The notes under the pieces were generated by a model. That model did no database searches and was not told the DNA's origin. It saw only the letters and a program-made list of their open reading frames with translations. A stretch of DNA of 38,889 bases from a virus: positions 1-38,889 of the IMG/VR virus record IMGVR_UViG_3300018476_000023. One strand, given 5' to 3'. This document shows, piece after piece, positions 23 through 38,889 of the stretch. How positions within the stretch are numbered: position 1 is the first letter of the stretch; each line of letters starts with the position of its first letter. The translations under genes and the position numbers were made by a program.

Positions 23-3000
23 ATGGCAGGTATTCGGAACGTCAACAAGTCTCTGGATGGACGACATTCCGACGCGAAGCTTCCTCCTGGTGCATCCAGT
101 CGCCAGGGGAAGATCCCCCGCATCTTAGAAACTATGCCTGTGCAGGGAAATGGTGGAACCCCAGTGGGAGAGCCACCTGTAGATGAGATCTTCTTCATCA
201 CCCAGTCTCTCGCGAATGCCGCAGAGGGGTTCCCCTACAGCTTTACCGTACAGGCTATCTCAACCCTCGGGTCTGAGGTTGAATTCGTAATCACTTCTGG
301 GGATCTCCCAGAGGATACCTTTTTAGATCCCGCCAGCGGCATCATATCGGGAGTACCTATAGGTATTGGCTCCTATCCTCTCGTAATACAGGCATACGTC
401 CCGGGTTCTCAACCGCTGGTAGCTGGTTTTCAAGAGTTTACGATGAATGTGGCTACGGGACCCTTCAGTATAGATCCCTTAGCCATCACATCACCCTCCA
501 CTCTTCCTACAGGGGTACAGGGGGCCGCTTATAGCTACGTATTCCAAGGATACAGCTTCGCTGCCGGTAATCTCGTCTGGAGTGTCTCCGCTGGGTCCGA
601 TTTACCCCCAGGTTTACTCTTAGATCCAGATGGGACCATGTTAGGTGTTCTCTCCGAGTTCGGCGTACACACATTTGATTTAGATTTAGATGACGGCGTC
701 GAGCCTACTGTAACGGGTTCTTTTTCTCTCACCGTATTCCAACAGATACAGGGGCTCATTGTGATTACACTTAACTCGCCTATTCCGCAGACGATAGAAG
801 GTGACTACTACCAACAGCAGTTTACCGCTATCGGCAATACCTCTCCTATAAGCTGGACCGTAAGTGGTCAACCTACTGGTATGCATATCAATAGCGCCAC
901 GGGGTTGTTCTATGGTATCCCAGAGGAGAACGGTGACTTCACTTTAACGGTCACAGCGGCAAGTTCTACAGATATACCCGCAAGTAAAGACTTTGAGTTC
1001 ATAGTTCTCCCCGTACTACCCACGATCACTGTGGATACCCCCGCTAACTTCACGGCTGGACAGTCGGTTCTGATTGAATGGCACATCACTGACCCAATTA
1101 GCTTCACACCTAACTTTCAGGTGTACGCTCAACAGGGTGGATCGGCATTCGGCCCCCTGGATGTGACCCCTGTGGACGATGGAGGGGGCGATTGGCACGC
1201 TTGGCTGTCCTCACCGTACAGTACACCCGCCGGTTCCTACCAGTTTGCTGTTTTGGAGACGGTTACGAGCCAATATGGCTTCTCCCCGCCCTTTACTATC
1301 ACTGCTTACCCGGCAATCACCTTCACAACCACAAACCCCCTCCCAAATGCGACCGTAGGTGTCGCCTATAGCCAGTCTGTGGTGGCTACGGGGGGTTTAG
1401 GAGCCCTTACCTACTCCCAAAGTGGCCTTCCGGGTACTCTTCCTATGAGTTCTGGGGGAGCAATCACTGGAACCCCGCTTGCCTCTGGGCTTTTCACCAG
1501 TTTAGTGAACGTAACTGACGGTATTGGGCCAGGAACCAGCCAATACTACAACTTAGCCATCTTAGATCCGGGTGCAATCGTAATCACCACGGTCAATCCC
1601 CTCCCTGACGGGTTCGAGGGAGCGGCGTATAGCCTCCAGTTCACGCAAACAGGCGGAAGCTCCCCTACATGGTCTATCACGTCCGGGTCGATCCCTGGGG
1701 CTACCATGACCCCAGGAGGGCTCCTGGCGGGGACCCTGACTACACCTGGGGTTTACGTCATAGAAGTCACCGCTTCGGACGGGATAGCTCCTGATGGGGT
1801 GGAGGAATTCACCTTAGAAGTACACCCAGCCCTGGGTACCGCCTGGGTTAAAGTGATTAGCCGGGATGGGGCTGAAATTGTTATCCGAGAAGGTGACAAT
1901 TTCACACTCACAAACGGTTCGGCCTTACAGGATGTGTTAGGAAACCCCACAGGGTCCACTCTGAATCTCGCCTCAGCATCCCTGAATGCCCCTGGGACTT
2001 GCCCCGGGCTTAAGTGTAGGATGACCTTCGGGGACTGGGAGATTCTGAATGTGGGCTGGTGTGAGGGCATGGGAAGCCCCCAAACCAACGGTGTAGGCCA
2101 CCCCTTCTACTTTACTGATGTGAAGATGTACTGCCCCGGTAGGGAACCCCTCTTTGGTGCAGAATACTTCGGTGCCGTGCATCTTGGTGGAGATGTGTGG
2201 CATCTGGTTCAACCCTCAGATCCCAAGCACCCCTGCCGTGCGGCCAACATATTCATCTCTGTGGGTGGTATCCAGAGATATGCCCCCTCCCTCTCCAATC
2301 ATATGTTAGACGGTGGGGAGGCTATCCACTACCGGATAGTGCCTTCCACCTTCGCACACGAGACTCTCCCGAGTGCTGGAGATATAGCCGACGCCTTTAC
2401 GGTGATGCACATAGACGCCACCCGCATAGCCACTTGGCCCCTCTTGGAGTTTATGATCGACCTTCACAGGCACGATCCGGCTACCTATAACGTGGCTACG
2501 GCTCCCCAGAACTCCACCACGATGTCGTGGAATACATGGCAACCCAATCACCATGTGGCCCACCCTGGTACCACCACCAACCTGAACCCCAACCCATACC
2601 GTAAGTGGCACCATGCCATGCACGTTATGAGTCAGCAGAACAGCAACGGGACTAATGTGCGCCCCGGATGGTACAACTACCTGATCGCCTGGGCTCACTA
2701 CTGTATGAGGAACCCTACAGACCAGCTTAGCTACGACTACTTCCTGGCTCTGATGCGAAAGAAGATCACCGCTGGGATGAATAGGTTTGACTCTGCCAGT
2801 CTCTACAAGGGTCTGTGGAAAGCCGAAGGTACAGACACCTATGGTGCCTTCACTCCTCAGGTGGCCTTCTGTAAGCTTGGTACCGCAGCCACGATCTATT
2901 CGCAGTTTGAGAAGCAGTTTAATACGGATCTCGCCATTGCCAAGATGCTCACCCAGAGCACTCCTGATCCGGTTATAGATGACGCCTTTGATCGGTATAC

Positions 3001-3889
3001 CGACAAATTAGTTACCTTTGTCCCTTCGTGGACTGGGAGTATAGCTGGGTCTACTGGTGGGCTGAGACAGCCAGGGCACTACCTGAACGGACTGTGGAGG
3101 TTCTTTAAGGCTCACACAGTGCTGGGCAATGCGGCTACAGCAGCGGCTCTCAAAGCCAAGGCTGCTGGCATGATAGAGCAGATGTTCGTGTGCAGGGATC
3201 TCTCTGCCACATGCTCTGCTGCCTTAGGAGTGGCTACTAAGTGTAACTTCGTCCCCTGCACTTCCAATCCCAACGCTACCCCCATGTCTACCCCATCTAA
3301 CCTTGGTGGTACCCCGCCTCTCATCATCCCGGCTACCGCTGGCTACGGTGAAGGCTTATATGGTGCCATCACACGTTGGATGGTGGATGAGGGTACGAAT
3401 GCTGGAAGGTTAGCTGACTGGCAAACCATGTGTAACTGGTACTTCACCTACCAGTTCCGTAATCTCGGCACAGGGTCTATCCAGGGTGTTGCTGGTTCTG
3501 GGCCTCGCTATGAGGTTCCCTACCGTTTCTACCCCGATATGTCTGGTGGTGGAGCTACCTGGAATAGCCCAGGACAGCAGATTACCTCCGGGCAGAACCC
3601 AACCTACAATGGTTACTTCCATGCCTCCTGGGATCTCTGCATGGAGCCCTACATGACCTCATGGTTCCCTGGTGCTGTGGCCCCTCTGGGTCAAACCTGG
3701 GCTGTCCATTTTGAGCGTTTAGCTCGTCTGGGTTACGAAGATCCTAATACTTGGTTCGATGCAAGTGGTAATACCATAGGACTCGCAACTACCCACTCGG
3801 GTGGTAGTCACTCTGGTACTGGTTCTCTTAACTATGACATTTGGGCTGGCAAACACTCAGGCATTTGGTGCATGGGGGCGCTCGCCTAA
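23..3889 (+). CDS. Large Ig-repeat virion protein (tail fibre/appendage-like) with unknown C-terminal domain
   Basis: A protein of 1288 residues. The ATG directly follows an in-frame TAA at 20-22, so the start lies inside the window, although the upstream ribosome site is weak. After about 50 low-complexity residues come roughly six Ig-like units (about 53-145, 150-240, 243-330, 331-428, 428-515 and 516-603). Most carry the pattern of putative-Ig (He_PIG) domains, such as LPPGLLLDPDG and ATGLFYGIPEENG. The fourth unit is different. Residues 605-1288 form a large domain rich in Trp, His and Tyr, with HH pairs (QPNHHVAHPG, RKWHHAMHV), that looks largely alpha-helical. It could be a carbohydrate-active domain, but I recognise no catalytic signature. 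Size, Ig repeats and position among late genes suggest an appendage that binds or degrades surface polysaccharide. That role is inferred. Confidence 0.75.
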   Translation: MAGIRNVNKSLDGRHSDAKLPPGASSRQGKIPRILETMPVQGNGGTPVGEPPVDEIFFITQSLANAAEGFPYSFTVQAISTLGSEVEFVITSGDLPEDTFLDPASGIISGVPIGIGSYPLVIQAYVPGSQPLVAGFQEFTMNVATGPFSIDPLAITSPSTLPTGVQGAAYSYVFQGYSFAAGNLVWSVSAGSDLPPGLLLDPDGTMLGVLSEFGVHTFDLDLDDGVEPTVTGSFSLTVFQQIQGLIVITLNSPIPQTIEGDYYQQQFTAIGNTSPISWTVSGQPTGMHINSATGLFYGIPEENGDFTLTVTAASSTDIPASKDFEFIVLPVLPTITVDTPANFTAGQSVLIEWHITDPISFTPNFQVYAQQGGSAFGPLDVTPVDDGGGDWHAWLSSPYSTPAGSYQFAVLETVTSQYGFSPPFTITAYPAITFTTTNPLPNATVGVAYSQSVVATGGLGALTYSQSGLPGTLPMSSGGAITGTPLASGLFTSLVNVTDGIGPGTSQYYNLAILDPGAIVITTVNPLPDGFEGAAYSLQFTQTGGSSPTWSITSGSIPGATMTPGGLLAGTLTTPGVYVIEVTASDGIAPDGVEEFTLEVHPALGTAWVKVISRDGAEIVIREGDNFTLTNGSALQDVLGNPTGSTLNLASASLNAPGTCPGLKCRMTFGDWEILNVGWCEGMGSPQTNGVGHPFYFTDVKMYCPGREPLFGAEYFGAVHLGGDVWHLVQPSDPKHPCRAANIFISVGGIQRYAPSLSNHMLDGGEAIHYRIVPSTFAHETLPSAGDIADAFTVMHIDATRIATWPLLEFMIDLHRHDPATYNVATAPQNSTTMSWNTWQPNHHVAHPGTTTNLNPNPYRKWHHAMHVMSQQNSNGTNVRPGWYNYLIAWAHYCMRNPTDQLSYDYFLALMRKKITAGMNRFDSASLYKGLWKAEGTDTYGAFTPQVAFCKLGTAATIYSQFEKQFNTDLAIAKMLTQSTPDPVIDDAFDRYTDKLVTFVPSWTGSIAGSTGGLRQPGHYLNGLWRFFKAHTVLGNAATAAALKAKAAGMIEQMFVCRDLSATCSAALGVATKCNFVPCTSNPNATPMSTPSNLGGTPPLIIPATAGYGEGLYGAITRWMVDEGTNAGRLADWQTMCNWYFTYQFRNLGTGSIQGVAGSGPRYEVPYRFYPDMSGGGATWNSPGQQITSGQNPTYNGYFHASWDLCMEPYMTSWFPGAVAPLGQTWAVHFERLARLGYEDPNTWFDASGNTIGLATTHSGGSHSGTGSLNYDIWAGKHSGIWCMGALA

Positions 3890-5880: not shown

Positions 5881-6181
5881 CTGTCTGGGGTACAAACTCA
5901 ATAGGAAGCCATTAGAGGCGTCCGAGGGGTTCTTAGACCAGTAGGACCTAAAAGCAATCCAAACGCCCCATAAGCCTTCCTGTGCCCTCCTGAAGCCTTC
6001 TAAGGGGGTACCCTGGGGCGACTGTGGTTTTGACACCCCCTCGGAGTACCTTCGGGGGTGGTAGGACCCATATGATGCTCGGGAAGGTCAGTCTAAAAAG
6101 TGGTGGGAATTTTTAAGAGGGTTTCCGAAACCGAAAATTCGGTTTTCCCCCCTGGCCACCCCTTGCAAATCCAAGGGGCTC

Positions 6182-8812: not shown

Positions 8813-8813
8813 A

Positions 8814-8884
8814 GGGTTGTTAGCTTAACGGTAGAGCGGCGCTATCAAATGCGTACTATATGGGTTCAAATCCCATACAACCCT
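8814..8884 (+). tRNA. tRNA-like gene with 8-base anticodon loop (anticodon unresolved, CAA or UCA)
   Basis: The 7-base acceptor stem (GGGTTGT/ACAACCC), the D-stem GCTT/GAGC and the T-arm ATGGG-TTCAAAT-CCCAT are intact, and the discriminator is T. The anticodon arm is abnormal: only GCGC/GCGT (8839-8842, 8851-8854) pairs, leaving the 8-base loop TATCAAAT. If T8845 is U33 the anticodon is CAA (Leu). If the loop is counted from its 5' side the anticodon is UCA, which would read UGA stop codons, but position 33 would then be A. It may be functional, degenerate or a frameshift or stop suppressor. CCA is not encoded. Confidence 0.55.
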
Positions 8885-8900
8885 GTTAGGAGTTATAAGT

Positions 8901-9246: not shown

Positions 9247-9455
9247 GTGTACGTCGTAGTCACTATAGGCGCACATTCTACGATGGTAAACCTGCTGATA
9301 TCCTGTGTGACTCATGTTATTCCATTAGGATTAATGTGAAGTACACACAGGCTAACATCGTTTTCACCTGTCGTAAGTGTGGTCATGTAGATAAGATGCC
9401 TCGTTACGAGTCTGCTAATCCTGAGATTAACAGGAGATTATCTGAGGTAACATGA
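9243..9455 (+). CDS. Small zinc-ribbon protein
   Basis: A protein of 70 residues, coupled on both sides by ATGA overlaps. The N-terminus is basic (VRRSHYRRTFYDG). Two CxxC knuckles (CDSC about 22-25, CRKC about 43-46) form a zinc ribbon like those in nucleic-acid-binding proteins. Function unknown. Confidence 0.65.
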   Translation: MSVRRSHYRRTFYDGKPADILCDSCYSIRINVKYTQANIVFTCRKCGHVDKMPRYESANPEINRRLSEVT

Positions 9456-9928
9456 AGTATAAGATTATCTTCTTAGATGTGGATGGAGTTCTAAACTCCT
9501 CCACATTTTTTCGTGATATGAAGGAGATAGGTAAGTTTCGCACAGACTTATGGAATCTTAATCCTAACTCCATCGCCCTGTTAAGGGTGCTGATTGCAGA
9601 AGATCCTACCATTAGGTTAGTCCTTAGTTCTACCTGGAGATTATATCCAGATGGGATTAAGGCTCTACATGAGGCTGGATTAGATTTCATAGCCTCTACT
9701 GTAGATTACCACGGTGCTAAATGTCGTGGTGAAGAGATACTCAGGTGGGTGATTGATAATGAGGATGATATCTTCTCCTATGTCATATTAGATGACCAGG
9801 ATGATATGCTTCCTCAGCAGTATAAGAGATTCGTGCGTACTTCCATGCGTGATGGTTTACTTCCTGTTCACTTAGAGAAAGCTAAGAGAATCCTATGTTG
9901 CCCAATGAACAGTCCAGTAGTGTTCTGA
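9452..9928 (+). CDS. HAD-family phosphatase-like protein (RNA-repair HAD type?)
   Basis: A protein of 158 residues. The HAD nucleophile motif lies at the N-terminus (IIFLDVDGVLNSS, with D9 and D11). The second motif is LSSTWR (about 58-62) and the acidic fourth motif ILDDQDDM has D114/D115, so all main catalytic elements are present. The DVDGVLN and SSTWR forms resemble the small HAD proteins linked to RNA and nucleic-acid repair (HAD_SAK type), which act as 5' or 3' phosphatases. Neighbouring tRNA genes would fit a role in RNA end repair, but this is inference. It overlaps its neighbours by ATGA and TGATG, so it is part of a coupled chain. Confidence 0.75.
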   Translation: MKYKIIFLDVDGVLNSSTFFRDMKEIGKFRTDLWNLNPNSIALLRVLIAEDPTIRLVLSSTWRLYPDGIKALHEAGLDFIASTVDYHGAKCRGEEILRWVIDNEDDIFSYVILDDQDDMLPQQYKRFVRTSMRDGLLPVHLEKAKRILCCPMNSPVVF

Positions 9929-10095
9929 TGGATAGGATTAGCGAGTTGGAATCCCAGATCGCTATTCTTACTGGTGTGGTCGTTCTTCTCCGTGGATTCC
10001 TGTTCAAGAACGATCTTCCAGAGGATCGTATGCTGATTGTGGTAGCTACTGAGAATCTCCTCAAGAGACAAAATGGCTACAACATTACACTCTAA
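9928..10095 (+). CDS. Small helical hypothetical protein
   Basis: A protein of 55 residues whose ATG shares the last base of the previous TGA. It begins with a coiled-coil-like helix (RISELESQIAILTGVVVLLRGFLF) and may associate with membranes. The end overlaps the next gene by 23 bases. I recognise no family. Confidence 0.55.
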   Translation: MDRISELESQIAILTGVVVLLRGFLFKNDLPEDRMLIVVATENLLKRQNGYNITL

Positions 10096-10642
10096 TCTAC
10101 TGGAGTTGTACCACAATGCCCCTCCTAATATTAAACAGGAGGGGCTTCTTTGGTATAGCTCAGCACGTACCTATTATTCTCAGTTAGCGCGTAAACTACA
10201 TCTTAAACCTCGTGTGGTCTTAGGTGTAGTTGCAGCTTTATCACCATTCGTCAAGTGGAGCACACAATTAGCTCTCACTGAGAAATTTATTACTGATGAA
10301 CTACATCAAAAAGGGTCTGGGTCTTTTCCTGGATTTCCTGCTAATCTTAGAACTGCTCGTTCTATTCTTGGTGGTACGCCTGTTCTGGAAGCGTTGAATG
10401 GCCCAAAGACACGGGCGTTCTATAAGAATCTTATCGGGAGGAAGAAACCTATTACTCTGGATAGGCACGCTATTAGTGCCGCATTAGGGAAGAAGATTAG
10501 CCCTAAAGAGAGGCATACTAAGGCTCAATTACGTGATATACACAGAGCATACGTGGAAGCCGCTAAGCAGGAACGTGTCGGTAACTGCGATTTCCAGGCG
10601 ATTGTGTGGTCAACTTGGAGGATTAAAGATGCGTCCCATTGA
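10073..10642 (+). CDS. DUF7178-like phage protein (HhH-type nucleic-acid binding?)
   Basis: A protein of 189 residues. The pattern VVAALSPFVKWSTQLAL, then FPANLRTARSILGG, then LNGPKTRAFYKNL and finally ITLDRHAISAALG matches a widespread phage family (DUF7178). Its GPK-x-x-x-F-Y and LD-x-H segments recall helix-hairpin-helix DNA glycosylases, but the catalytic function is not established. The ATG overlaps the end of the gene before. It may protect or process phage DNA. That is inference. Confidence 0.6.
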   Translation: MATTLHSNLLELYHNAPPNIKQEGLLWYSSARTYYSQLARKLHLKPRVVLGVVAALSPFVKWSTQLALTEKFITDELHQKGSGSFPGFPANLRTARSILGGTPVLEALNGPKTRAFYKNLIGRKKPITLDRHAISAALGKKISPKERHTKAQLRDIHRAYVEAAKQERVGNCDFQAIVWSTWRIKDASH

Positions 10643-11208: not shown

Positions 11209-11282
11209 GCTCCTGTAGCCCAATTGGCAGAGGCACGGCACTTAAAATGCCGCAAGTGTGGGTTCGAATCCCACCAGGAGCA
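11209..11282 (+). tRNA. tRNA with anticodon UAA (Leu) but short variable loop
   Basis: The cloverleaf is complete: acceptor GCTCCTG/CAGGAGC, anticodon stem CGGCA/TGCCG with loop CTTAAAA (anticodon TAA at 11243-11245), and T-arm GTGGG-TTCGAAT-CCCAC, with discriminator A. The variable region is only five bases (11253-11257). Bacterial tRNA-Leu normally has a long variable arm, so this Leu anticodon in a class I body is unusual. CCA is not encoded. Confidence 0.85.
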
Positions 11283-13163: not shown

Positions 13164-13236
13164 ATCGGTTGTGGAGGCTTATGGGGCGTCTGGATCGGTT
13201 TTAGGTCCCAGTGGTCTAAGATCGGTCTGGACGCCC
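13163..13236. promoter_or_regulatory. Intergenic element with three GATCGGT repeats and an inverted repeat
   Basis: GATCGGT starts at 13163, 13193 and 13220. GGGCGTC (13184-13190) is the complement of GACGCCC (13230-13236), and TTAG/CTAA pairs inside. It precedes the gene block that leads to the RNA polymerase gene, so a promoter or regulator site is plausible but unproven. Confidence 0.4.
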
Positions 13237-33370: not shown

Positions 33371-33925
33371 ATGTGTATACCAGCGTTACCCGCCATCGGG
33401 ATGGGGTTATCCCTGTTGGGTTCCGCTGGTAATATGGCCAACAGCATGGCTACCTACGAGTATCAGAAGGAAATCTCTGAGCGAAACGCGAAGCTTGCCA
33501 AACGTGCCGCGAACTCTCAGTACTCCCAGTTAGGGGAGAAGTACTATCAGGAAGGCGTAGGGCTGGCTGCTGAGGGTGAGAAGGCTGCCGCTGATGCTAA
33601 CGCGGCCCGTAGTAGGGTTAACGCTGCTGCTGCGGAAGCGGGAGTCTCCGGTAACTCTGTGGAAGCTCTACTGGCTGACTTCTCTCGGCAAGAGGGAAAC
33701 TACCTTACCGCCCTGGATACCCAGCGTAGTTTCCAGAAGTCTGAGCTGCACTACGCTAAACAAGGTGTCCGATCAGGGCTCGAAGCTCGCCTTATTAACG
33801 CTGCCCCTCCTGCAAGGCCGGACTTCTTTGGTCAAGCCCTGGGAGCCTTCTCTAACGCCTTCAGTTCTGGGTTGCAATTGGATCAGGTTAGTTACTCCCA
33901 CGGTGGAAATACCCTCTTCATATAG
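33371..33925 (+). CDS. Internal virion protein (T7 gp14-like)
   Basis: A protein of 184 residues (T7: 196), AAAGGA upstream. It begins MCIPALPAIGMGLSLLGSAG, a hydrophobic start like T7 gp14. An Ala-rich helical body follows (RVNAAAAEAGVSGNSVEALLADFSRQEGNYLTAL). In T7 this protein forms a channel in the outer membrane during ejection. Order between gp13- and gp15-like genes supports the call. Confidence 0.85.
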   Translation: MCIPALPAIGMGLSLLGSAGNMANSMATYEYQKEISERNAKLAKRAANSQYSQLGEKYYQEGVGLAAEGEKAAADANAARSRVNAAAAEAGVSGNSVEALLADFSRQEGNYLTALDTQRSFQKSELHYAKQGVRSGLEARLINAAPPARPDFFGQALGAFSNAFSSGLQLDQVSYSHGGNTLFI

Positions 33926-33934
33926 AAAGATCAC

Positions 33935-34480
33935 ATGCCTAAACGTTATGTAGAGAATGACCTAAACAAAGGGCCGTCTCTTCAGCCTACCGTTAGGCAA
34001 CGCGATGACTTCCAACAGGTACATGGGGTCGCTCTCAACCAAACCGATTGGTCAGCCCTTAGTCGCTCCCTTACTAACGCATTAGCCTCCTATACTGACC
34101 TCTACGGAACCGAACAGAGGAAGATGGGTGCTACGGAGTTTACAGAGGAGTTAGCCCGTGCAGAGCAAGAGCATGGGGATATGCAGAAAGCCTTTGCCCA
34201 AGCTGTGGCTAAAGGCGAGATGGCTATGGGGAAGAATCCGTATTTCAAGACGGGTTACCTGGAATCCTTAGCCGAGAATCTCTCAGGCAGAATGCACGCT
34301 GAGGCTTCACCCAAGATCAGACATGGGTACGACCTGGATAAAGTCCCCAATCCCGTGACTGGTGTAGCTCCCGCTGCGGAACCCAGTCAAGCCCCTGCAC
34401 AACCTGTCCCCGGTACTCACTATGTAACCAAGTGGCAGATGCCAGATGGTTCACTCTCTGATTGGAAGCCACCCGGTTGA
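33935..34480 (+). CDS. gp15-like internal virion protein, N-terminal part (ends at in-frame TGA)
   Basis: A protein of 181 residues. It begins with a polar region, then helical segments and GKNPYFKTGYLESLAENLSGRM, a pattern (NPxFxxGY) found near the start of gp15-type internal virion proteins. It ends in a Pro/Ala linker at TGA 34478-34480. The reading frame continues without a break past this TGA into the 954-residue product. So this is either a separate small protein or the short form of a readthrough product. Confidence 0.6.
   Translation: MPKRYVENDLNKGPSLQPTVRQRDDFQQVHGVALNQTDWSALSRSLTNALASYTDLYGTEQRKMGATEFTEELARAEQEHGDMQKAFAQAVAKGEMAMGKNPYFKTGYLESLAENLSGRMHAEASPKIRHGYDLDKVPNPVTGVAPAAEPSQAPAQPVPGTHYVTKWQMPDGSLSDWKPPG
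34478..34480 (+). other. In-frame TGA joining two gp15-like reading frames
   Basis: TGA between GGT and GCG. The frame is open from 33935 to 37426 except for this one codon. The codons 34481-34561 spell a Pro/Thr/Gln-rich linker in keeping with both sides. Readthrough would give a protein of about 1163 residues. A sequencing error or natural mutation is the alternative. Confidence 0.6.
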
Positions 34481-34561
34481 GCGGGCAAATCTTGCACCCC
34501 GGTCAGGGTTGCGGTAACTGCACCGTTACAGTGGACTCCCAAAGCGACTCCCCAGGCTCCT

Positions 34562-37426
34562 GTGAAACAGCAGGGGGTATCGCAAGGTCCCACACAGGGC
34601 ACCAGCACTCGTCCCTCCGCTACTAAGCAAGAGGTAATAGCCTTCCCTGAGATCTCTGGTTTACCTGAGTTCTCTGAGGCTCCTATTGTGGCCCCTCCCG
34701 CCGCCGTAGCTGGCGTTCCTAATGCCCAGATAGCAGGCGTAGCTCCGGTAAACCCCTTTAACCCTGAGGCTGCCGTTACGGAAACCTACAGGAATGTTAT
34801 GGGGTTAGTCCCGCAGAGCGTCCAGAAGGACCCTTGGTTCCGTAAGGCGTTCGCTAAGTCTTGGGATAAGGCGCACCAGAGCCTCATGGCTCAGGCTATT
34901 GAACACCAATACACAGCCCACACGGAGGCCGCTATAGAGCAGCGCAGTATGGAAGTCGGTAGGGCGATAGAGTCAGAACTCGGAAAAGCTTCACCAGATT
35001 ACGCCGGGTTAACTTCGAGGTTTTCAGGGCTTCACGCGGATGGCATCCAGAATCCCTCAGGTCTGGTCTTTGAACAGGTCCAGGCTGGATACCGGAAGCG
35101 TATCGCGGATGGCGACCCCGCTGGAGCCCAAGCCTACTTAGATAAGGCCGCCGATATTACCGTAGGTACCGCCAAGATTTCTGAAGGTAAGTACGCAGAT
35201 AACTTCCAGGCTCTCCGTCAGCACGCCTATGCAGCCAATAGGGCTAAGCAGGATGACGGTGGGGTGCATGAGATTAGGGATATGAAGAAAGCCCTGTCTG
35301 CCCACCCAGATTACCTTGCGATTGCTACCAGTAAGGACCCCGGTGCTGCCGCACAGTTGGGTCAACAGCTTATCGGGAAGATTGCTGCTGGTCAGATTCC
35401 GGGTGTTGAACCAAAGCACTTAGAAGCCGCCATGTCGGAGATCAGTCAGGCTACGGATATCGCTTCTCGACTGAGTAACAACGCTCAGATAACCATAGCT
35501 GCCCAGCATAGGTATAACGTTGACCACGGTAAAGAAGCTGAAGCCATCATTCAAGAGGAGACGCTGCTTACAGGTGCCCAGAAAAACGAGGCAATAAAAT
35601 ACCGTGAAACCCGTGCCGCCAACGTGAACAAGTACCGTAAGAGCAACGTGGATCGCAATGTGGCTGAGATGGAGCGACTGCGCTCTCATGCCTATGATAC
35701 AGACACAGCAAGTCAGGGATACGGACAGGCTATGCAGGATGAGATTGAAACTCTCCGAGAAGCCTTAGCTGACGGCATGGCTGGCCCTGAGCCACAGAAG
35801 TTCATGGCTGAGATTGCTCCTGGTTTAACTCAGGCTGCGAAGGACAAAGTGGAAGCCTGGAATCAGAAGATCAAAGATCGCTCTGAAGCCATGCAAACTC
35901 GTGTGGATGAGATCCTTGCGAATAACCAAGATCCCGAGGCGTTCATCAGAAGTATCGAAGGTAAGGATATCGGCCAGAAGGAAGCCGACAAGATGCGCAA
36001 CCGGGGACAGGAACTCTTCGCCCCAATAGCCCAATCCCGAATCAACGCACAGAATAGACTCCCCAACATCCTCCAGGAAGTTGACAAGTCTATGAAGGAT
36101 ACTACTAAGTACAACAAGGTCGGTAAAATCCTGACTGGACCTGGAGTAACCCTCGGTCTAATCAACAATGATCCTTCTAACTTGGTTGCGGTCCCCAACC
36201 CCTGGGGTGGAACTACGCTTACTATTAAAGAGACTGCTAACTATTCCCGGTGGAAGAATGATATCGGACAGCAGGCAATAGCTGCACACCAAGAATGGGT
36301 TAACTCCGATGCTGGCAAGAAAGCTAATGATGGGTCCAAGACTGGATTCCTAATTGCCTCTGACAATGCTATGAACGAGATTCAGCAGATCGTTAGGGAT
36401 CACGTAGATGGTGACAGTCCGTTAGGTAAGATAGACTTTAGTGCTGTAACTGGGAAGGGTGGTGGCCCGGATAAACCCCAGAAGCCAGTTAAACCCGCAA
36501 GTGAAACTGGAGCTGCCCCCAAGGAGGCCGCTGGTGCGTCCACAGAGATCACCCCCGAGGAAACCGCAAAGCTCCCCAAGGTTGGAGAGCGCGATACCGC
36601 ATACGATCAGGCTCAGTCCTCTTTCATGGAGTCGGATCTTATCCCCGCATTCCAGAACAAGTGGAACGGTGGGGGTTGGCCCCCTGGTAATGAGAATGAC
36701 CGGCTGCCTGACTATGATTTTGCTTCACTTAACAAACTGTCACAAGCCACCAAAACCCTCTCGGCTAACCTGCTGATTAACCCTGGTTTAATCCCAGGTA
36801 ATTCGGCTAATGAGAAGGGATATTCAGCCCTGCGTAAGAATCTTGGTTATGCCGGTGCTAAAGCGGAGCCACTCGCAAGCAGCTCTCTATTCCGTAAGGA
36901 CCAGCTTATAGACCGCTATGTATTGGGTGGGGCTGAGATGGCTGGTCGGAGAGGTAACAGTGGCGGTGGGGCGTTCCATCCGACGCCTATGGCTGCCTTC
37001 GTGTACCGTGCAAAGCAGGCTAATGATCCTGGAGCAAGGAAGTACCTGGAGTTAGCCCGTAAGAACAACCAGTATCTCCTGGGTACCATCATAGAGAAGT
37101 CTGGTGCAACCCCAGAGGAGATTCAGACGGCAGCTATAAACGCTACGTTCCACCTGGGTATCTCTAAAGCGGATATGCTGAAGGGAGCATACACCACTAC
37201 TAAGGGAGATATTCCGCTGGATGGAACCGCTATTGCATTCCAGGTTACCCCTCTGTTTGATAGTATGAGGGAAATGGTGGAGACTATGGAGGGTAACAAC
37301 AGGGAAGCTGCAATCATCTTCAACTTCCTTGGCATCCCCTTCGACCCCTCCAAACCAGTACAGACACATCCAAACTACGCCATATTTAGAGCTTACCAAG
37401 AACAAGCTCTTGAGAGGTTGCCGTAA
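34562..37426 (+). CDS. gp15-like internal virion protein, main part
   Basis: A protein of 954 residues if started at GTG 34562 (T7 gp15: 747). It is helical and acidic-basic mixed throughout, with KDPWFRKAFAKSWDKAHQSLMAQAI early on, long Ala-rich helices and a Pro/Ala/Glu-rich hinge at about residues 635-680. No ribosome site precedes 34562, and the same frame is open upstream to the TGA at 34478, so initiation here is doubtful. In T7 the protein is part of the inner core and forms the periplasmic channel during DNA ejection. The stop shares a base with the gp16-like start. Confidence 0.75.
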   Translation: MKQQGVSQGPTQGTSTRPSATKQEVIAFPEISGLPEFSEAPIVAPPAAVAGVPNAQIAGVAPVNPFNPEAAVTETYRNVMGLVPQSVQKDPWFRKAFAKSWDKAHQSLMAQAIEHQYTAHTEAAIEQRSMEVGRAIESELGKASPDYAGLTSRFSGLHADGIQNPSGLVFEQVQAGYRKRIADGDPAGAQAYLDKAADITVGTAKISEGKYADNFQALRQHAYAANRAKQDDGGVHEIRDMKKALSAHPDYLAIATSKDPGAAAQLGQQLIGKIAAGQIPGVEPKHLEAAMSEISQATDIASRLSNNAQITIAAQHRYNVDHGKEAEAIIQEETLLTGAQKNEAIKYRETRAANVNKYRKSNVDRNVAEMERLRSHAYDTDTASQGYGQAMQDEIETLREALADGMAGPEPQKFMAEIAPGLTQAAKDKVEAWNQKIKDRSEAMQTRVDEILANNQDPEAFIRSIEGKDIGQKEADKMRNRGQELFAPIAQSRINAQNRLPNILQEVDKSMKDTTKYNKVGKILTGPGVTLGLINNDPSNLVAVPNPWGGTTLTIKETANYSRWKNDIGQQAIAAHQEWVNSDAGKKANDGSKTGFLIASDNAMNEIQQIVRDHVDGDSPLGKIDFSAVTGKGGGPDKPQKPVKPASETGAAPKEAAGASTEITPEETAKLPKVGERDTAYDQAQSSFMESDLIPAFQNKWNGGGWPPGNENDRLPDYDFASLNKLSQATKTLSANLLINPGLIPGNSANEKGYSALRKNLGYAGAKAEPLASSSLFRKDQLIDRYVLGGAEMAGRRGNSGGGAFHPTPMAAFVYRAKQANDPGARKYLELARKNNQYLLGTIIEKSGATPEEIQTAAINATFHLGISKADMLKGAYTTTKGDIPLDGTAIAFQVTPLFDSMREMVETMEGNNREAAIIFNFLGIPFDPSKPVQTHPNYAIFRAYQEQALERLP

Positions 37427-38889
37427 TGCCAGACCCATATGAACCTGAGGAGCCGATCAATAGCGGACCTTATGTGGACAGGATCAATCCACAGGGGACC
37501 TCCGCGATAGATCGTATTATGGGACCGCAGTTTAGAGCCCAGGTTCTCCCGGCTGAACAGACGAAGGAACGCTATCAGCCGCATAGGTTCGGCCAGACGT
37601 ATAACCCGCAGGAGCATATGTCCTTTGGGGAGACTGTGGGTGATATCGCCTTAGCTCCCGTCCGTGGTGTCTACAATGCCGGTCGTGACCTGTACTCCCT
37701 GGTGGACCACCTGGGTAACGACAAGCTTCCTAACTGGGATAAGTGGGAGGCCAACAGTACAGCCGGACAGGTAGCCTCAGATGTATCCCAGATGATCGCC
37801 AGCTTCTACATTGGTGGGCTGGCTCTTAAGGGTATAGGGGTTGCCGGTAAGTTAGCCAGTCTCGGTAAGATCGGTAAGTGGACCGAGAGCGCACTCCAGG
37901 CTGAGATAGGGAGTGTACTGTCGTTCGAGAACCACTATAACCTCTCTAACTGGGCAAAGGAAAGTGGACTCCAGTGGGGCCTTACGGACCTCATGGCTAT
38001 AGATGAGGAGGACTCTGAGTTAACCGCGAGGTTCAAGAACTCATTTGAGTCTATTGGGCTCTCCCCGTTGCTCTCTCCTGTTATGCACCTTCTGGGGCGT
38101 GGCGCTAAAGCCGCTCTGGGCAAGATCCCGTTTAATAGGGTGCTGGACAAGTTCACCAAAATAGTGGATGATGTTTCGGATGTCTCTGTAGAGAAGATCC
38201 AGCCGCTCTCCCCGGGTCAAACCGATACTTTACTCGCAGCGGGCGGGTTAGATCCTGTGGTTATCCGAGAGAGTGTATTCGGTCACCTTGGGGTTAAGCG
38301 AGGGGATGTTACTCCAAATCTTGAGGGTACTGTTCCTAATCGTGTACCGGGAGAAAGCGTTACCCACCGCCCGGACACTCTAATGGACACTCTGGATTAC
38401 CCTAAAAGGGTAGATCAAGTTGAGCCTGCTACGGTAGATGAGTTTGCCCCCGACCGTCACCTTCGGGAGAGTATGCAACCAGAGGGTAAAGAGGTTGCTA
38501 TAGACTATCCTAAGAAGGTAGATTCCGGTCCCCCTCATGGGGATGAATTCACTCCAGATAGACACCTAAAGGACACCTTACAGCCCGAGGATGCTACGGT
38601 TGCGCTGGATTATCCTAAGGTGGTGGATCAAGTTGAACCGCCGACAAAACCGCCTGAGTTCGTCGGTGATAAGTCTACTCAAGATTATCTCTGGAACCCC
38701 TATGATCCGAATTCCCTTCTGAAGCAAGGTGAGATAGACACAGGACTACCTAATCCAGGTCCCGCGAAACCCAACACACCACTGACGAGAGCCCGGGATA
38801 GTATCGTTAAGATCCGTCCTACGGTGATTAGGAGCCTCACTCCTGAGGGTGTGGTTGGCTTCGCCCGTGGAGTCGAATCTCTCTACGAA
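37426..38889 (+). CDS. gp16-like internal virion protein, partial (runs off the window)
   Basis: A protein of at least 488 residues with no stop before the window end. The ATG overlaps the previous TAA. After a polar start it has GDIALAPVRGVYNAGRDLYSL and SDVSQMIASFYIGGLALKGIG, helical and partly membrane-like. A tandem repeat of about 36 residues follows (LDYPKRVDQ, IDYPKKVDS, LDYPKVVDQ). By position it matches T7 gp16 (1318 residues). The N-terminal part shows no lytic transglycosylase motif, which in T7 lies at the start. Confidence 0.7.
   Translation, partial: MPDPYEPEEPINSGPYVDRINPQGTSAIDRIMGPQFRAQVLPAEQTKERYQPHRFGQTYNPQEHMSFGETVGDIALAPVRGVYNAGRDLYSLVDHLGNDKLPNWDKWEANSTAGQVASDVSQMIASFYIGGLALKGIGVAGKLASLGKIGKWTESALQAEIGSVLSFENHYNLSNWAKESGLQWGLTDLMAIDEEDSELTARFKNSFESIGLSPLLSPVMHLLGRGAKAALGKIPFNRVLDKFTKIVDDVSDVSVEKIQPLSPGQTDTLLAAGGLDPVVIRESVFGHLGVKRGDVTPNLEGTVPNRVPGESVTHRPDTLMDTLDYPKRVDQVEPATVDEFAPDRHLRESMQPEGKEVAIDYPKKVDSGPPHGDEFTPDRHLKDTLQPEDATVALDYPKVVDQVEPPTKPPEFVGDKSTQDYLWNPYDPNSLLKQGEIDTGLPNPGPAKPNTPLTRARDSIVKIRPTVIRSLTPEGVVGFARGVESLYE
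38392..38640 (+). repeat. Tandem coding repeat in the gp16-like gene
   Basis: Units start at 38392, 38500 and 38605 (36 and 35 codons, then a partial third). They share (L/I)DYPKxVD, the middle (F)xPDRHL and the end QPE. The DNA has diverged more than the protein pattern. Confidence 0.65.

Follow-up and report, generated by a model that had tools for sequence, protein, structure and literature searches.

Gp15 of T7, part of the gp14-gp15-gp16 ejection cassette, is an octamer in the virion and a hexameric tunnel after ejection (PMC8954989). An in-frame stop within a virion protein gene is known from Q-beta, an RNA phage whose minor coat protein A1 is a product of UGA readthrough, made at a rate of about 1 in 15, with a long polyproline helix in its extension (PMC8067240). 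Among bacterial stops UGA leaks most, and leakiness in bacteria has been linked to A or C after the stop (PMC5289835). In alternatively coded phages UGA is used as Trp or Gly and suppressor tRNAs are present; recoded phages carry many in-frame stops (PMC10746230).

The window analysed here, the whole stretch of 38,889 bases, is a virus contig with T7-like gene order (RNA polymerase, primase/helicase, DNA polymerase, exonuclease, portal, scaffold, capsid, gp11/gp12 and internal virion proteins), and the phage is a divergent T7-like podovirus. Its locus resembles the T7 gp15 family in the order gp11-gp12-gp13-like-gp14-gp15-gp16, in an N-terminal motif, in a colinear match of the body and in a predicted all-alpha fold. 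It differs in its length of 1163 codons, as against 747 in T7 and about 600-800 in most relatives found, and in having an extra disordered linker of ~150 residues and an in-frame TGA. As in the Q-beta coat/A1 pair, the UGA follows a complete N-terminal unit of a virion protein and lies in a Pro-rich connection; however, the A1 extension is a minor domain of dispensable length, whereas the part after the stop is here the main body of the protein, and evidence of readthrough, available for Q-beta, was not found at this TGA. Like the alternatively coded phages, this one has a TGA within the frame of a late gene as well as an odd tRNA, but it has just one such TGA, and many of its genes end normally with TGA.

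The interrupted gp15 frame

The frame runs from ATG 33935 to a TAA at 37424-37426, and its sole break is the TGA (Table 1), in agreement with the original prediction of a frame of about 1160 codons interrupted once. Coding bias is strong in the same frame on both sides of the TGA (+42.8 and +306 bits). No stops or frameshifts are apparent in the other large genes; the record is therefore not generally poor sequence, which counts against the reading as a frame break taken up below.

Table 1. Positions of the gp15 frame, its neighbours and other features discussed in the text
Feature	Position	Strand	Evidence
tRNA gene with 6-nt anticodon loop and U-U mismatch below it	8813-8885	+	51.3 bits as tRNA; ARAGORN
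gp14-like internal virion protein, directly 5' of the gp15 frame	33371-33925	+	PHROG 805, E 9e-24
First ORF, 181 codons up to the TGA: gp15 N-terminal domain and start of linker	33935-34480	+	hhalign 31.1
Pro/Thr/Gln/Ala-rich linker insertion, residues ~125-276, TGA at residue 182	34307-34762	+	pLDDT 26-32; absent from relatives
In-frame TGA, next base G	34478-34480	+	sequence
About ten codons with abnormally weak frame-0 coding signal	34481-34510	+	score -3.2 over 9 codons
Part after the TGA, in frame for a further 981 codons: all-alpha gp15 body	34481-37426	+	hhalign 34.3; helical prediction
Possible internal start GTG, Shine-Dalgarno-like CTGAGGC, -5.6 kcal/mol	34688-34690	+	chance expectation 0.26 per stretch
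Possible internal start ATG, Shine-Dalgarno-like ACAGGAA, -4.3 kcal/mol, at conserved body edge	34799-34801	+	Shine-Dalgarno score
gp16-like internal virion protein	37426-38889	+	PHROG 6651, E 7e-6; phmmer match to relatives' gp16

Comparison of the frame with PHROGs and Pfam gave nothing above the cut-off, and direct sequence comparison linked it neither to T7 gp15 nor to any solved structure. Parts of gp15 were also used to query phage records, by near and by translated search, with no match, and the part after the TGA drew none from viral contigs. As the gp15 protein itself gave no direct matches, relatives were collected through gp12, which retrieved only distant ones (29-37% identity); a search with the RNA polymerase found relatives at 30-35% identity, and bacterial genomes yielded two fragments. 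None of these is close enough to reveal the ancestral codon. A profile was built from the gp15 proteins of about 40 distant relatives obtained through gp12, in which gp15 is one unbroken ORF between gp14 and gp16. To this profile, residues 4-95, before the TGA, align at columns 16-110 (score 31.1; null maxima of 19.6 in 100 shuffles and 20.9 in unrelated ORFs), and residues 281-429, after it, align at columns 154-304 (score 34.3; null maximum 21.0). The matches are weak but calibrated, and they follow the order of the family. Because they are colinear and lie well above the nulls, they show, at the level of sequence comparison, that the two ORFs belong to a single gp15 gene, as the original prediction had presumed. 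What is new here is this profile evidence, which shows by homology a gp15 N-terminus before the TGA and a gp15 body after it.

Details of the first ORF agree with this assignment. It begins as the gp15 of relatives does, with a short basic N-terminus followed by a motif ending LQPT(V/I), and the most conserved columns of the family, including R4, L42, A43, L46 and L50, fall within it. The flanking gp14-like and gp16-like genes stand in the same order as in the relatives. The gp16-like gene runs past the end of the record, which lacks most of gp16, so that the genome is either incomplete or permuted. At the other end of the record, positions 23-3889 of the + strand encode a protein of 1288 residues, probably of the tail or a fibre, in which there are five putative Ig (He_PIG) domains.

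The frame is predicted to be all-alpha, in a structure model of low confidence (mean pLDDT 47.6) that has helices at residues 39-92 and from 277 on and is unstructured between about 124 and 276. The linker insertion is predicted to be disordered and almost devoid of secondary structure. The stop thus falls in a disordered insertion that is peculiar to this phage among the relatives found. Gp15 of this phage would begin with a helical segment at its N-terminus and continue through a long disordered linker into an all-helical body, the part expected to build the periplasmic DNA-injection tunnel.

The codons after the TGA and the nature of the break

We consider it somewhat probable (about 0.55) that the TGA is a local frame break in the record, by sequence or assembly error or by a real nonsense or frame-disturbing mutation, rather than a functional recoding signal. 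Intact genomes of the phage would then make a single full-length gp15. The relatives found all have one unbroken gp15 ORF between gp14 and gp16. Of the two readings originally offered, readthrough found no positive support in the stop context, RNA structure, TGA use or relatives, and error or mutation is favoured, albeit in an altered form: the original prediction spoke of a change of a single base in one sense codon, and the signal past the TGA is more suggestive of a short frame disturbance.

This signal comes from the first codons past the stop. The nine codons after the TGA score -3.2 in frame 0, a value within the lowest 0.7% for in-frame windows in the phage's genes, and another frame outscores frame 0 just after the TGA, a situation seen in only 1.6 to 4% of gene windows. 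The frame-0 signal is back by about position 34511, ahead of any usable start, and is strong over 34535-34687. The linker was claimed to continue through the 27 codons after the TGA. Linker-like composition does hold over all 27 (P 0.0004, Markov null), but not over the first 11 (-3.8 bits), the signal coming from the last 16 (+10.2 bits). Since the first codons would be normal at a clean readthrough site or after a clean change of one base, a short frame disturbance fits better, and the weak coding signal fits such a disturbance whether by mutation or by assembly error. The non-coding-like stretch is itself a weak, small-sample signal, since it covers nine or ten codons within a linker of odd composition.

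On the reading as a frame break the TGA matters little, and the locus holds a divergent gp15 with a long disordered linker. A caution follows for records of uncultivated viruses, in which lone in-frame stops need a read check first.

Readthrough and a separate start as alternatives

Foremost among the alternatives is UGA readthrough, by which most ribosomes would stop to yield the 181-residue protein and a minority would make the 1163-residue gp15; we regard it as unlikely, and place the same low confidence in the TGA being a maintained recoding site that gives a short product (the N-terminal segment and half the linker) and a long gp15, possibly aided by the odd tRNA described below. One gene does extend over both sides of the stop, and the stop lies in a disordered interdomain linker, where truncation and readthrough would both be structurally tolerable. 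UGA is also the stop most prone to leak (PMC5289835), Q-beta A1 provides a precedent in a virion protein (PMC8067240), and, with gp15 an octamer in the T7 virion (PMC8954989), few copies would be needed per particle and a low rate could suffice. However, the base after the stop is G and not the A or C linked to leakiness (PMC5289835), and no stimulatory RNA structure was detected downstream of the TGA (z-scores +0.41 and +0.27). The TGA is absent from all relatives found, these being distant and lacking the linker. Readthrough does not predict the poorly coding-like codons directly after the stop, and it would ration a functional product, since the main body of a virion protein expected to be essential lies beyond the stop. 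A real TGA that is read through would make this the first T7-like ejection protein whose dosage is controlled by stop-codon readthrough, would link recoding in translation with the stoichiometry of the DNA-ejection apparatus, and would give the odd phage tRNA a function.

A separate start for the gp15 body would make the TGA the end of a distinct 181-residue N-terminal protein, with the body initiated at GTG 34688 or ATG 34799, and we hold such a split gene to be doubtful. The original prediction named GTG 34562 as the next possible start, and this is so, the 27 codons before it holding no in-frame ATG, GTG or TTG. Its Shine-Dalgarno sequence is indeed weak (-2.5 kcal/mol), but the argument drawn from a missing ribosome site is weak as well, because the start of gp15 itself, ATG 33935, scores only -0.9. 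None of the relatives found, all of them distant and without the linker, has a clear start just before 34562. Shine-Dalgarno-like sites at the two starts farther downstream match those of some real genes here in quality, and ATG 34799 stands at the edge of the conserved body (residue 289 versus 281). Yet sites of such quality are expected by chance at 0.26 (GTG 34688 type) and 0.6 (ATG 34799 type) per stretch of that length. A split gene would also have to be reconciled with the strong frame-0 coding signal over 34535-34687, well 5' of both starts, and with linker-like composition that begins before 34562, and no split gp15 is present in the relatives found.

TGA use and the odd tRNA

TGA is the commonest stop among the early and middle genes, where it ends 22 of the 44 called, including those of the helicase and the DNA polymerase. 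TGA is therefore an ordinary stop in this phage and is not reassigned. None of the nine major structural genes, this TGA left out, ends in TGA; this means little, because the structural genes of the relatives use TGA as a stop only about 10% of the time. Two wider explanations found no support: genome-wide stop recoding, in view of the single in-frame TGA and of the early and middle genes just named, and a selenocysteine UGA, there being no SECIS element after the TGA (no such family among Rfam matches up to E 10). For three other ORFs that end in TGA, at 9452, 17430 and 22331, the sequence past the stop matched no family. The ORF at 9452-9928 (+ strand) encodes a HAD-domain protein of the RNA-repair kind (HAD_SAK_2) and is followed by that of a DUF7178 protein at 10073-10642.

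Five tRNA genes are present in the record, and the one with the short anticodon loop (Table 1) is the sole candidate among them for reading UGA. ARAGORN assigns it to selenocysteine or leucine, its anticodon being reduced to CA; the loop contains UCA, which leaves the anticodon ambiguous between a UGA reader and Leu. A seven-base anticodon loop is the norm. The gene may be degenerate or have a missing base, and degeneracy is more likely than a role in reading UGA. Searches with it in phages and viral contigs gave no useful match, and no odd tRNA was found at the loci of the distant relatives.

Suppression by this tRNA, with late genes passing the stop as an incipient form of phage stop-codon recoding, is in our view very improbable. 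It would draw on the tRNA score of 51.3 bits, on the UCA in the loop and on the structural genes that do not end in TGA. The loop of six bases rather than seven and the U-U mismatch make decoding doubtful, the low use of TGA in structural genes is also that of the relatives, the helicase, the DNA polymerase and the other TGA-ended early and middle genes speak against a suppressed stop, and where recoded phages have many in-frame stops (PMC10746230) there is here one. Least probable of all is ribosome hopping, known from T4 gene 60, across the TGA and the non-coding-like codons that follow it. A Gly codon GGT directly precedes the stop and ~30 bases after it look non-coding, but all three GGT triplets after the stop are in the -1 frame, none giving frame 0, and landing on the GGC nine bases further along would not take the ribosome past the stretch.

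Two further observations concern the tRNA genes of this phage. A tRNA at 11209-11282 (+ strand) is typed Leu(TAA), and its variable arm is short, unlike that of ordinary class II leucine tRNAs. An inverted repeat of 61 bases, 82% complementary, has its arms at 5917-5977 and 13175-13235, 7.2 kb apart, and these span much of the early region together with four of the five tRNAs.
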